A stretch of 64,000 bases of DNA from Prochlorococcus marinus str. MIT 9107 (GTDB taxonomy: Bacteria; Cyanobacteriota; Cyanobacteriia; PCC-6307; Cyanobiaceae): positions 186,001 to 250,000 of the forward strand of contig NZ_JNAI01000009.1 of assembly GCF_000759855.1 (NCBI RefSeq), given 5' to 3'. Every line of letters begins with the position of its first letter. Position 1 is the stretch's first letter. The notes beneath the pieces are model-generated. The model ran no database searches and was not told where the DNA came from. It was given only the letters and a program-made list of their open reading frames with translations. Below, in pieces: positions 12,625-55,273 of this stretch. A program made the position numbers and the translations under genes.

Positions 12625-14298
12625 ATGAATAAATTCAGATCATCTGCAATAACCCAAGGTGTGCAAAGATCCCCTAACAGATCAATGTTAAGAGCTGTTG
12701 GATTTAATGATGAAGATTTTAATAAACCTATTATTGGAGTTGCCAATGGTTACAGTACAATAACACCATGCAATATAGGGTTAAATAAGTTAGCTCTCAG
12801 AGCTGAAGAGTCAATCAGAAGATCAGGCGGAATGCCTCAAATGTTTGGAACAATCACTGTAAGTGATGGCATTTCTATGGGAACAGAGGGGATGAAATAT
12901 TCACTAGTTTCAAGAGAAGTAATAGCTGACTCAATAGAAACCGCATGTAATGCTCAAAGTATGGACGGAGTACTTGCAATAGGTGGATGTGATAAAAACA
13001 TGCCTGGTGCCATGATAGCAATTGCAAGAATGAATATTCCCTCAATATTTATTTATGGAGGAACAATCAAACCAGGGAAATTAAACGGAGAAGATTTAAC
13101 TGTTGTCAGTGCATTTGAAGCAGTTGGACAGTTAACATCAGGCAAAATTAATGAAAAAAGGTTAATCGAAGTTGAGAAAAATTGTATTCCTGGAGCAGGA
13201 AGCTGTGGAGGAATGTTTACGGCTAATACAATGTCTGCTGTTATAGAAGTATTAGGGTTAAGCCTCCCTCACAGTTCAACAATGGCTGCAGAGGATTATG
13301 AAAAAGAACTAAGTGCAGAAAAAAGTGCCGAGATATTAGTAGATGCGATAAAAAAAGATATAAGACCTCTTGATCTAATGACCAAGAAGTCATTTGAAAA
13401 TGCAATATCTGTAATAATGGCTGTTGGAGGTTCAACAAATGCTGTATTACATATTTTAGCTATAGCGAATACTGCAGGTATTGATATTAGTATTGATGAT
13501 TTTGAGAGAATAAGGCAAAAAGTTCCTGTTATTTGTGACCTTAAGCCAAGTGGAAAATATGTAACTGTGGATCTTCATAAAGCAGGAGGGATTCCACAAG
13601 TTATGAAAATACTCTTAAATGCAGGATTAATTCATGGTGAATGTAAAAATATAGAAGGCAAAACAATTTCCGAAAACTTAAAAGAAATTCCAGATACTCC
13701 TCCAGATAATCAAAATGTCATTAGAGATATAAATAATCCTCTTTACAAAAAAGGACATTTAGCAATATTAAAAGGAAATTTAGCAAAGGAAGGTTCCGTA
13801 GCAAAAATTAGTGGAGTAAAAAACCCTGTACTTACTGGACCAGCTAGAATTTTCGAAAGTGAAGAGGATTGCCTTAAATCTATCCTAAATAATGATATAA
13901 AAGCTGGAGATGTAGTTGTAGTAAGAAATGAAGGTCCTGTTGGAGGGCCAGGCATGAGAGAAATGTTATCTCCTACATCAGCAATTGTTGGACAAGGTCT
14001 TGGAGAAAAAGTGGCCTTAATTACTGATGGAAGATTTAGCGGAGGTTCTTACGGACTGGTTGTTGGACATATCGCTCCAGAAGCTGCTGTTGGAGGCAAT
14101 ATTGCTCTTATAAAAGAAGGAGATTTAATTACTGTTGATGCGGTAAAACTACTAATTCATGTAGATTTATCTGATGAAGAATTAAAAGCTAGAAGAAAAA
14201 ATTGGGAGAAACCAGATCCAAAATATAAAAAAGGTATACTTTCAAAATATTCAAGGATCGTAAGCACATCAAGTTTAGGAGCAGTTACTGATTTATAA
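12625..14298 (+). CDS. ilvD: Dihydroxy-acid dehydratase
   Basis: Third step of valine/isoleucine synthesis: dehydrates 2,3-dihydroxy acids to 2-keto acids using an iron-sulfur cluster. Full length at 557 residues. Cluster and magnesium motifs are present: TPCNIG with one cysteine, GGCDKNMPG with the second, and [12 protein letters not shown] with the third; the C-terminal [11 protein letters not shown] and TDGRFSGG loops complete the active site. Three cysteines in this spacing fit the 2Fe-2S plant/cyanobacterial-type enzyme. Confidence 0.96.
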
Positions 14299-36878: not shown

Positions 36879-37535
36879 CTAGTTTGATTTCATTGATGCA
36901 ACTTCCTCAGCAAAGTCCATCTGATTTTTTTCTATACCTTCACCCAGGGTATATCTTGTAAAGCGTCTTACTTTGATATTTTCTCCAATTTTTGCAGCTG
37001 ATTGTTTTACCAGATCCTCTACCGTAAGAGAACTATCTTTGATATAAGGTTGAGAAAGTAAAACCAACTCATTTAGTCTTTTCGCTATCCTCCCTTCAAC
37101 TATTTTTTCTTTAATTTGTTCTGGTTTTCCTGATAAATCATCTCTCCCCATTTCAATCTGCTTTTCTTTTTCCACAACATCTTTTGGTATTTCATCAATT
37201 GACACGTACTCAACATTTGGACAAGCGGCTACCTGCATTGAGACATCTTTCAACAGAGATTGAAATATATCGCCCCTAGCGACAAAATCAGTTTCACAAT
37301 TTAACTCTAAGAGAACTCCAACTCTTGATCCCGTGTGTATGTAACTTCCAATAGAGCCTTCAGCAGCAACTCTTCCAGATTTCTTTTCAGCACTAGCTAT
37401 ACCTTTCTTTCTCAACCACTCCAAAGCTTTTTCGACATTTCCGTCAGTTTCATTTAGTGCTTTTTTGCAATCCATCATTCCGGCACCGGTCTTATCTCTA
37501 AGATCTTTTACGAGTTTTGCTGTAATGTTTCCCAT
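36879..37535 (-). CDS. tsf: Elongation factor Ts
   Basis: Nucleotide-exchange factor for EF-Tu. 218 residues: the N-terminal UBA-like domain with [18 protein letters not shown], then [15 protein letters not shown] of the core subdomain that contacts EF-Tu, and a C-terminal helical region. This is the short single-core form typical of cyanobacteria. It lies 43 bases downstream of rpsB, the conserved rpsB-tsf operon, and so would be subject to any control at the rpsB leader. Confidence 0.95.
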
Positions 37536-37578: not shown

Positions 37579-38283
37579 TTAATTTTTTCTTTCGGCATTA
37601 GATCCCTTTCTGCCCTCATTTATAGCATCTGCAAGTCTTCCTAAAATAAGTTGAACAGATCTAACTGCATCATCGTTACATGGAATTGGAACTTCGCATA
37701 AATCAGGATCACAGTTAGTATCCAACATTGATACTAATGAGATATCTAATTTCCTAGCTTCTAAAACCGCATTAGATTCTCTTCTCTGATCAACCAAAAC
37801 TACTACGTCTGGCAATCTTCTCATACCCTTAAGTCCACCCAAGTATTTTTGTAATCTTTCGAGTTCTCTCCTTAGAACTGCAGCTTCTTTTTTAGGCCTC
37901 ATTGCTATTGAACCACTACTTTCCATCCTTTCTAGTTCTTTCAATCTTTCAATCCTAGCTTTCATTGTTGTCCAGTTTGTCAACATACCTCCAAGCCATC
38001 TTTGATTTACATATGCAGCTCCACAACGAGTAGCTTCCTGGGCAACTACATCTGATGCTTGTTTTTTTGTTCCGACAAATAAGAATCGTTTACCACTTTT
38101 AGCTGCGTTCCTTGTCCATTTATATGCATTATTCATACATAATGCTGTCTTTACAAGATCAATAATATGCACTCCATTTCTCGCGCAATATATATATTTA
38201 GACATTTTGGGATTCCAACGTCTAGTTTGGTGCCCAAAATGAGCACCAGCTTCCATCATTTCAGATAGTGATACAACAGCCAT
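37579..38283 (-). CDS. rpsB: 30S ribosomal protein S2
   Basis: 234-residue S2. The N-terminal [55 protein letters not shown] and the C-terminal [14 protein letters not shown] blocks are standard. S2 is the last protein to assemble on the 30S and is an autoregulator of rpsB-tsf in Escherichia coli. Here the leader contains an interleaved pair of inverted repeats (38295-38358) suggesting the same kind of control. Confidence 0.97.
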
Positions 38284-38294
38284 AATTTAAAAGG

Positions 38295-38358
38295 GTTTCG
38301 GGTTAGCCTCCATCTGACGGGGAAGTAGTATTAATAAATCACCCGAAACTGTCAGATG
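38295..38358 (-). promoter_or_regulatory. Candidate H-type pseudoknot in the rpsB leader
   Basis: Read on the minus strand, 5' to 3': CATCTGAC (38358-38351), GTTTCGGGT (38349-38341), a 22-base loop, GTCAGATG (38318-38311), a 7-base spacer GAGGCTA, then ACCCGAAAC (38303-38295). The first and third elements pair perfectly (8 bp), the second and fourth pair perfectly (9 bp), in the order A-B-A'-B', which is a pseudoknot and not nested hairpins. It ends 11 bases before the rpsB ATG (38283) and the A'/spacer contains GGAGG (38311-38307). Position and form suggest translational feedback by S2. Confidence 0.7.
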
Positions 38359-38377
38359 TGTGGATTTAATTTAAAAT

Positions 38378-38383
38378 ATTGTA
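38378..38383 (-). promoter_or_regulatory. Possible -10 box of the rpsB promoter
   Basis: TACAAT on the minus strand, about 20 bases upstream of the first pseudoknot element. A start site near 38371 would give a leader of roughly 88 bases that contains the whole candidate structure. No convincing -35 is visible 17 bases upstream. Confidence 0.35.
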
Positions 38384-38411
38384 GCAAGTGATGAGTATTT
38401 CTAAAAGCTTT

Positions 38412-53847: not shown

Positions 53848-55167
53848 ATGAAAGATATTAAATGTCCTTCATGCGGCAAAACCTTTAAAATTGATCCCAG
53901 CAGCTTTGAAGAAATACTTCTTCAAATAAAAGATGAAGAATTTAATAAACAAATAAAAGAAAGACTTCAACTGGCTGAAGAAGATAATAAAAAAGCTTTA
54001 GAAATCTTAAAAAGAGAATTAAAAATAAAGTTAATTGAGCAAAATCAAATTAAAGAAGTTGAGATCCAGGCTCTTGAATCTAAATTAAATATTGCAGAAG
54101 AAAAAAAAATAAATGCCTTAAATGATTTAAGAAATCAAGCAACAAATAAAGTGAATTCACTTAATAATGAATTGAACAAATTAAAGGATGAAATCAAAAA
54201 CCAGTCTTTAATTTCAGAATTATCCTTAAAAAATAAAATAAATGAAGCTGTTTCTAATTTAGAACATAAAAACTCATCTCTAATAAATTCCATTGAAAAA
54301 ATGAAACTTGAACAGTCAATTAATGAAAAATTAATTGAAGAAAAGTTTAAAAGCAAAATTAGTGAAAGGGACCTGACTATTCAGGAGCTAAGAGAAATGA
54401 AATCTAAATTGTCTACAAAGATGATTGGAGAAACCCTAGAAATCCATTGCGAAACTCAATTTAATCTTAATCGCGCTACCGCTTTTAAAAATTCATATTT
54501 TGAAAAGGATAATGATGCTACTTCAGGAAGTAAAGGTGACTATATATTTAGAGAATTTGATAATAATAGAATTGAAATAGTATCCATAATGTTTGAAATG
54601 AAGAATGAGAGTTTGAATGGAACTAATAAAAGAAAAAACGAAGATTTTTTAAAAGAACTAGATAAAGACAGAAGACAAAAATCATGTGAGTATGCAGTAC
54701 TTGTTTCGCTTCTAGAACCTGATAGTGAATTATATAATACCGGAATAGTAGATGTTTCCCATAGATATCCAAAGATGTATGTCATAAGGCCACAATTCTT
54801 TTTGCCAATTATTTCTCTTCTTAGAAACGCATCTATGGAGGCTTTAAAATATAAATCACAAATTGATTTAATGAAACGCGAAAACTATGACATAACAAAT
54901 TTTGAAAGTACTCTTGAGCAATTTAAAGATGCAGTTGGTAAAAATGTATCTCTAGCCCAAGACAGGTTTAATGATGCGATTTCAGAAATAGATAAATCAA
55001 TAACCCATTTGCAAAAAACTAAAGAAGCTTTAAATCTTTCAAAAAAACACCTTTTATCCGCTGACAGCAAATCTCAAGATTTAACTGTAAAGAAATTAAC
55101 TAGAAATAACCCAACCATGAAAAAAAGGTTTAATGATTTAGAAAATTTTGATGAAGAAGTAGCTTAA
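53848..55167 (+). CDS. DUF2130 domain protein (coiled coil plus nuclease-like domain)
   Basis: 439 residues. One CPSCG zinc-knuckle-like pair (Cys6, Cys9) at the N-terminus, then about 190 residues of charged coiled coil, then the DUF2130 domain (about 190-340): MIGETLEIHCE, SGSKGDYIFREF, IMFEMKNES, YAVLVSLLEPDSELYNTGIVDV and YPKMYVIRPQFFLPII are characteristic. Asp231 followed by E250-x-K252 has the layout of a PD-(D/E)xK nuclease core; that reading is inference. The family is scattered across bacteria, often in variable regions, suggesting transfer. Function unknown. Confidence 0.85.
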   Translation: MKDIKCPSCGKTFKIDPSSFEEILLQIKDEEFNKQIKERLQLAEEDNKKALEILKRELKIKLIEQNQIKEVEIQALESKLNIAEEKKINALNDLRNQATNKVNSLNNELNKLKDEIKNQSLISELSLKNKINEAVSNLEHKNSSLINSIEKMKLEQSINEKLIEEKFKSKISERDLTIQELREMKSKLSTKMIGETLEIHCETQFNLNRATAFKNSYFEKDNDATSGSKGDYIFREFDNNRIEIVSIMFEMKNESLNGTNKRKNEDFLKELDKDRRQKSCEYAVLVSLLEPDSELYNTGIVDVSHRYPKMYVIRPQFFLPIISLLRNASMEALKYKSQIDLMKRENYDITNFESTLEQFKDAVGKNVSLAQDRFNDAISEIDKSITHLQKTKEALNLSKKHLLSADSKSQDLTVKKLTRNNPTMKKRFNDLENFDEEVA

Positions 55168-55273
55168 TTAAATCAAGAAAAATTTCAAATTAATAATAGT
55201 TAAAAATACATTTAATTACTAATTTATAAATCTATTATTAATAATAAATTCCATAGTAAAGAAAATAAAGTCT

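Follow-up and report, generated by a model that had tools for sequence, protein, structure and literature searches.

A candidate S2 autoregulatory RNA in the pseudoknot-type leader of rpsB in Prochlorococcus and other cyanobacteria

Introduction

How Prochlorococcus controls the supply of its ribosomes has, to our knowledge, otherwise been little described. The leader of rpsB in Prochlorococcus marinus str. MIT 9107, located within the stretch of 64,000 nucleotides analysed here (the window), raises the question of whether two interleaved inverted repeats in front of the gene form an RNA element through which ribosomal protein S2 (uS2) controls its own synthesis. Autoregulation of the rpsB-tsf operon by uS2 in Escherichia coli was reportedly described by Aseev and coworkers in 2008. 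As summarized in a 2024 review, E. coli uS2 represses the translation of rpsB-tsf with the aid of bS1, and the ribosome binding site is located outside the operator (PMC10931766). An rpsB leader motif, consisting of a helix P1, helices P2 and P3 of variable form and a pseudoknot formed by J2-3 and a 3' extension, was described by Meyer et al. (2009) for Alpha-, Gamma- and some other Proteobacteria, Cyanobacteria and some Firmicutes; according to this description, Cyanobacteria have a very short P2 or none, and the pseudoknot comprises five predicted pairs outside the Firmicutes (PMC2704228).

Results

Architecture of the rpsB leader

The minus strand of the window carries rpsB (37579-38283; ribosomal protein uS2, NCBIfam TIGR01011, E 7e-98) and tsf (36879-37535; elongation factor Ts, NCBIfam TIGR00116, E 3.5e-67). 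Directly upstream of rpsB and on the same strand, two perfect inverted repeats were identified. In helix A, the equivalent of P1, CATCTGAC at 38358-38351 pairs with GTCAGATG at 38318-38311 over 8 bp, and in helix B, the pseudoknot, GTTTCGGGT at 38349-38341, which occupies the place of J2-3 in the published motif, pairs with ACCCGAAAC at 38303-38295 over 9 bp. The half-helices follow each other in the order A-B-A'-B' and are separated by a loop L1 of 1 nt (38350), a loop L2 of 22 nt (38340-38319) and a loop L3 of 7 nt (GAGGCUA in the RNA, GAGGCTA in the DNA; 38310-38304). The B' arm ends 11 nt before the ATG of rpsB at 38283, and this spacer (38284-38294) is free of a Shine-Dalgarno sequence. 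A GGAGG, formed by L3 together with position 38311 (38311-38307), is located 23 nt from the ATG. Repeats, order, distance to the ATG and the placement of GGAGG inside A' and the adjoining loop agree with a preliminary description of this locus. As judged by reading the sequence, P2 is lacking in the window, and P3, which has its place within L2 in related leaders, is weak or absent. The nine pairs of helix B next to an L1 of a single nucleotide may put the structure under some strain.

The preliminary description had further held that such helices are unlikely to occur by chance, which applies at the actual G/C content and not to the bare arrangement: when the AT-rich window was shuffled 40 times, a mean of 1.6 perfect interleaved 8+8 pairs spanning no more than 75 nt arose per 64 kb. 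In the rpsB leader, however, 9 or more of the 16 pairs are G/C, and among the 834 interleaved 8+8 cases obtained from 500 window shuffles not one contained at least 9 G/C pairs. The minimum energy of the leader as calculated without pseudoknots was not unusual (z 0.17). Ordinary folding is uninformative here because it is unable to hold a pseudoknot, and the case therefore depends on the interleaving and on comparison with other leaders. Interleaved perfect 8-bp repeats occur at one other place in the window, 55165-55239, where 1 of 16 pairs is G/C, as expected by chance.

Conservation and covariation of the two helices

Leaders of rpsB were collected from 80 contigs, nearly all of Prochlorococcus, and from genus, family and class samples, giving 302 loci, among which the window's own region is counted twice (L001, L082) and many repeats occur between the sets. 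The motif was parsed at 299 of these loci; two of the other three have no leader owing to contig ends (L051, L058), and in the third (L241), which failed the parser, the motif is visible by eye. In L221 and L237 the parser picked a wrong GGGT, by which the affected totals shift by one or two rows (in the comparisons of class cores and tails with shuffled sequences L221 is corrected and L237 is not), and the number of distinct leaders varies with the identity key (101 + 82, 73 + 81, or 86 + 95 + 88).

An alignment (A1) was built from 48 of 72 drawn cyanobacterial leaders, favouring short loops; in two of its rows, L156 and L160, B' appears to be out of register. Two-sided changes were found in this alignment at all eight pairs of helix A, with 97.7% of the cells paired, and at four of eight pairs of helix B, with 94.3% paired. 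The sum of 12 out of 16 pairs was equalled by none of 500 shuffles. For both helices together, 96.0% of the cells are paired compared to 26.7-53.5% in slid controls, and the covariation score is 0.413 compared to 0.183 +/- 0.012 in shuffles. RNAalifold, when run unaided, recovered P1 and a P3 hairpin within L2 (columns 25-29/65-69), the latter with covariation in the relatives.

Helix B is near-invariant within the genus and the family, where it yields no support from covariation. Among 81 cores from other leaders of the class, pairs 4, 5, 6 and 7 are paired in 79, 78, 75 and 59, respectively. Pair 7, the outermost usual pair, lies clearly above shuffled sequences, which reach 54 at most; pairs 4 and 5 lie slightly above them (a level reached by 6 and 2 of 1000 shuffles, respectively), pair 6 is unconvincing (59 of 1000), and pair 8 shows no excess at all. 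Pairing is kept through changes in ATCGGGT/ACCCGAT (L169) and TACGGGT/ACCCGTA (L235, L238), as it is in the E. coli equivalent TTGGGGT/ACCCCAA, where the pair beside GGGT is G-C and not C-G; the two-sided changes near the core hence stem from few lineages and from E. coli. The paired covariation on which the preliminary description had made its proposal depend is accordingly present throughout helix A, while for helix B the genus and the family are neutral and the wider class and E. coli supportive, by way of those few lineages. In length, helix B comprises 9 bp in 83 of 86 genus leaders (10 bp in the other three) and in 91 of 95 other family leaders, and mostly 7-8 bp in other leaders of the class (67 of 88).

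Position of the transcription start

A start of transcription downstream of 38351, which would remove the 5' arm of helix A from the RNA and had been named as a possible refutation, is made unlikely by a conserved sequence upstream of the leader. An extended -10 promoter-like box, TGCTACAAT, is located at 38378-38386 on the minus strand, upstream of a conserved CACA (38360-38357) that overlaps the 5' arm of helix A. In the 48 nt preceding CACA, the corresponding TGNTANNNT is present in all 86 leaders of the genus, in 92 of 93 from elsewhere in the family and in 82 of 87 from the remainder of the class, compared to about 5 per group in shuffled stretches. Its distance to CACA is mostly fixed, at 17 nt in 73 of the 86 genus leaders and mainly at 19-21 nt in the leaders from the remainder of the class. 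Based on this box, transcription is expected to start near 38371 (38370-38372), so that the 5' arm of helix A would be transcribed. We found no mapped start site for cyanobacterial rpsB in the literature searched; PMC6091082 yielded only ribosomal protein S21.

Relation to known RNA families

No match to an Rfam model was obtained in the window at curated cut-offs. In a relaxed scan of the leader, the best match was t44 (RF00127; 28.8 bits, E 2.1e-4, under the cut-off of 44), the E. coli member of which sits directly before rpsB. When the same scan was applied to 19 cyanobacterial leaders and that of E. coli, all seven matches up to E 5 were to t44 or to RF01815 rpsB, which we take from its name to represent the motif of Meyer and colleagues, and these matches cover only 5 of the 19 cyanobacterial leaders and none of nine family members. 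Among class genomes, t44 reached its cut-off in 0 of 116, and RF01815 matched weakly in 9 of 96 and above its cut-off in 0 of 96. The comparison with Rfam leader models suggested in the preliminary description therefore returned t44 as the best match at a relaxed threshold and nothing above a cut-off. The missed cut-offs are a limit of curation and not a feature of the structure, and the leader is not assigned as a hit to either model.

A model built from the cyanobacterial leaders of A1 only (R1), among which close relatives of the window leader are present and the window leader itself is absent, matched the latter with 68.4 bits and the E. coli rpsB leader (L303) with 24.1 bits (E 2.7e-5). 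Elsewhere in the 64.6 kb searched, the highest score was 13.9 bits, and two weaker matches had 10.7 and 8.1 bits. R1 matched 132 of 145 class genomes; adjacency to rpsB was confirmed for the weakest of these (G285, 22.7 bits). Eight of the 13 missed genomes show the motif in the leader located by gene position (L161, L164, L195, L211, L228, L326, L327, L328), the 5' arm being only partly visible in L326; the other misses are L329, in which the 5' arm is not visible, and G183, G207, G276 and G292. In a phylum sample 87 of 194 genomes were matched, and the single hit to a genome not belonging to the class (G401, 21.0 bits) is located inside a reading frame.

Copies of the motif at other genes were also considered and rejected. 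The 13.9-bit match in the window (13249-13317) extends across a long opposite-strand reading frame, and G190 and G436 each have a second weak match (21.3 and 23.6 bits, respectively) that is situated within a long reading frame; together with that in G401, these four weak matches off rpsB look like chance.

Sequences resembling a Shine-Dalgarno

A Shine-Dalgarno-like tetramer follows the ACCC of B' in none of 86 genus leaders, in 1 of 95 other family leaders and in all 88 other leaders of the class, where shuffled tails yield 0.1, 1.4 and 32.6, respectively. The gap measured from B' to the tetramer includes leading A's and has its origin 3 nt within B'; as this overstates the overlap, the position of the first GG after ACCC was used instead. 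This GG lies 0-5 nt past the paired B' in 69 of the 88 other class leaders and inside B' in 19, although five rows with the first GG at -5 and -4 may represent the GG of ACCCGG. These positions and the near-complete absence of a Shine-Dalgarno in the family suggest that in cyanobacteria the knot touches, or replaces, the landing site of the ribosome.

The GGAGG at the junction of A' and L3 is intact in 85 of 86 genus, 86 of 95 other family and 72 of 88 other class leaders. GGTGG takes its place in nine of the 95 family leaders from outside the genus (L260, L270, L286, L287, L293, L294, L296, L297, L298). In the window as a whole, Shine-Dalgarno-like tetramers precede 5 of the 52 ATG frames that are 120 aa long or longer, which is the background level (a fraction of 0.109 of random 16-mers). 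Most translation starts in this genome thus seem to do without a Shine-Dalgarno, and rpsB is not special in that respect.

Discussion

Two perfect helices, conserved in sequence position and pairing, lie close to the start codon of rpsB and share homology with the E. coli rpsB leader. The element resembles the motif of Meyer et al. (2009) in its location directly upstream of rpsB within rpsB-tsf, in P1, in the pseudoknot that J2-3 forms with the 3' extension and in an absent or very short P2; since the published motif allows P2 and P3 to vary or to be absent, a leader with no P2 and a weak or absent P3 fits as well (PMC2704228). It differs in a pseudoknot of 9 bp, compared to the five pairs predicted there, in the weak or absent P3 of the Prochlorococcus window and in that the cut-off of RF01815 is not reached in any of the 96 class genomes. 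The notion of a conserved, pseudoknot-type rpsB leader is thus borne out by the helices, by their recurrence at 299 of 302 loci and by the published pseudoknot (PMC2704228), and the window element is the cyanobacterial form of a leader motif that has already been reported and is not new.

The preliminary description had assumed that E. coli uses a different structure, which has to be corrected. In the E. coli leader, CACAC precedes an 8-bp P1 (CACGTATC/GATACGTG), which is followed by TGGAGGC and then by TAACCC as the arm of a possible pseudoknot (TTGGGGT/ACCCCAA), an architecture shared with the window leader and recognized by R1. The two leaders differ in the distance from the end of B' to the ATG, which is 22 nt in E. 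coli compared to 11 nt in the window, in an AGAGG 9 nt downstream of the E. coli B' that has no counterpart in the window leader, and in the larger number of bases between the P1 arms of E. coli, which include a P2-like GGCAC/GTGCC.

The leader is probably an S2 autoregulatory RNA. More specifically, we propose, with a probability of roughly 0.8, that it serves as an autogenous uS2 operator within the rpsB-tsf 5' untranslated region, in which the knot would block the initiation of translation; homology and geometry point to uS2 as the ligand and to a translational block. P1, together with the pseudoknot that pairs J2-3 to the 3' extension, would build the uS2 binding site. uS2 present in excess over 30S subunits would bind and stabilize the knot, which reaches to within 11 nt of the start codon, the 30S subunit would then be unable to load, and rpsB together with tsf would be turned down. 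When uS2 is not bound, the 30S subunit, perhaps with S1, would open the knot. This occlusion need not be the same step as in E. coli, where, according to the 2024 review, the ribosome site lies outside the operator (PMC10931766).

Several other explanations have to be weighed against this model. That the inverted repeats are a product of chance without any function of the RNA would be compatible with the frequency at which shuffled windows yield interleaved 8+8 pairs, yet none of the 500 shuffles matched the leader in G/C content, and conservation and covariation extend across cyanobacterial leaders; we regard this explanation as negligible. Rather improbable, although by far the most serious competitor, is that the same motif acts independently of uS2, as a constitutive brake on translation, an S1-dependent standby structure or a stabilizer of the mRNA. 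The constraint on the sequence of helix B in the family exceeds what pairing would need, and a genome in which translation seems to start mostly without a Shine-Dalgarno (5/52) would also accommodate such a role. The restriction of the motif to rpsB (299 of 302 loci, with four off-rpsB matches that look like chance) and its homology with the S2 operator of E. coli, however, argue for uS2.

It might also be considered that GGAGG at 38311-38307 is a Shine-Dalgarno looped in by the knot, which would then activate translation. The sequence is conserved, 180 of the 181 leaders from the genus and the family lack a further Shine-Dalgarno-like tetramer past ACCC, and GGAGG is intact somewhat more commonly in the genus than in other leaders of the class. 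However, it is placed in L3 at 23 nt from the ATG, is replaced by GGTGG in 9 of the 95 family leaders from outside the genus, and is common as well where a proper Shine-Dalgarno follows (72 of 88) and in E. coli. A usable Shine-Dalgarno is therefore disfavoured from the sequence, making this explanation very unlikely, and GGAGG would rather be an element of the motif.

Within the preferred model of a uS2 operator, the leaders of the family represent a compact variant, modest and lineage-specific, in which the knot is longer and the Shine-Dalgarno is missing; in the open-licence literature we found no description of this picocyanobacterial form, with its near-invariant 9-bp knot and no Shine-Dalgarno after it. 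It might be hypothesized, with somewhat less than even confidence, that the operator was rebuilt in Prochlorococcus and marine Synechococcus, the Shine-Dalgarno being lost and the knot having grown to a near-invariant 9 bp in its place, by which an operator located upstream became a direct lock on the ribosome site; the sequence of this lock may itself be read by uS2.

Given R1 matches in 132 of the 145 sampled class genomes, the uS2 feedback RNA of E. coli may be very widespread in photosynthetic cyanobacteria, where the available Rfam models do not call it at their cut-offs. A cyanobacterial Rfam family model covering this element (38294-38362 in the window, together with the class-wide leaders) is apparently missing. 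The leaders also offer a clean comparative case, as the same operator occurs next to a Shine-Dalgarno in some leaders and lacks one in others.
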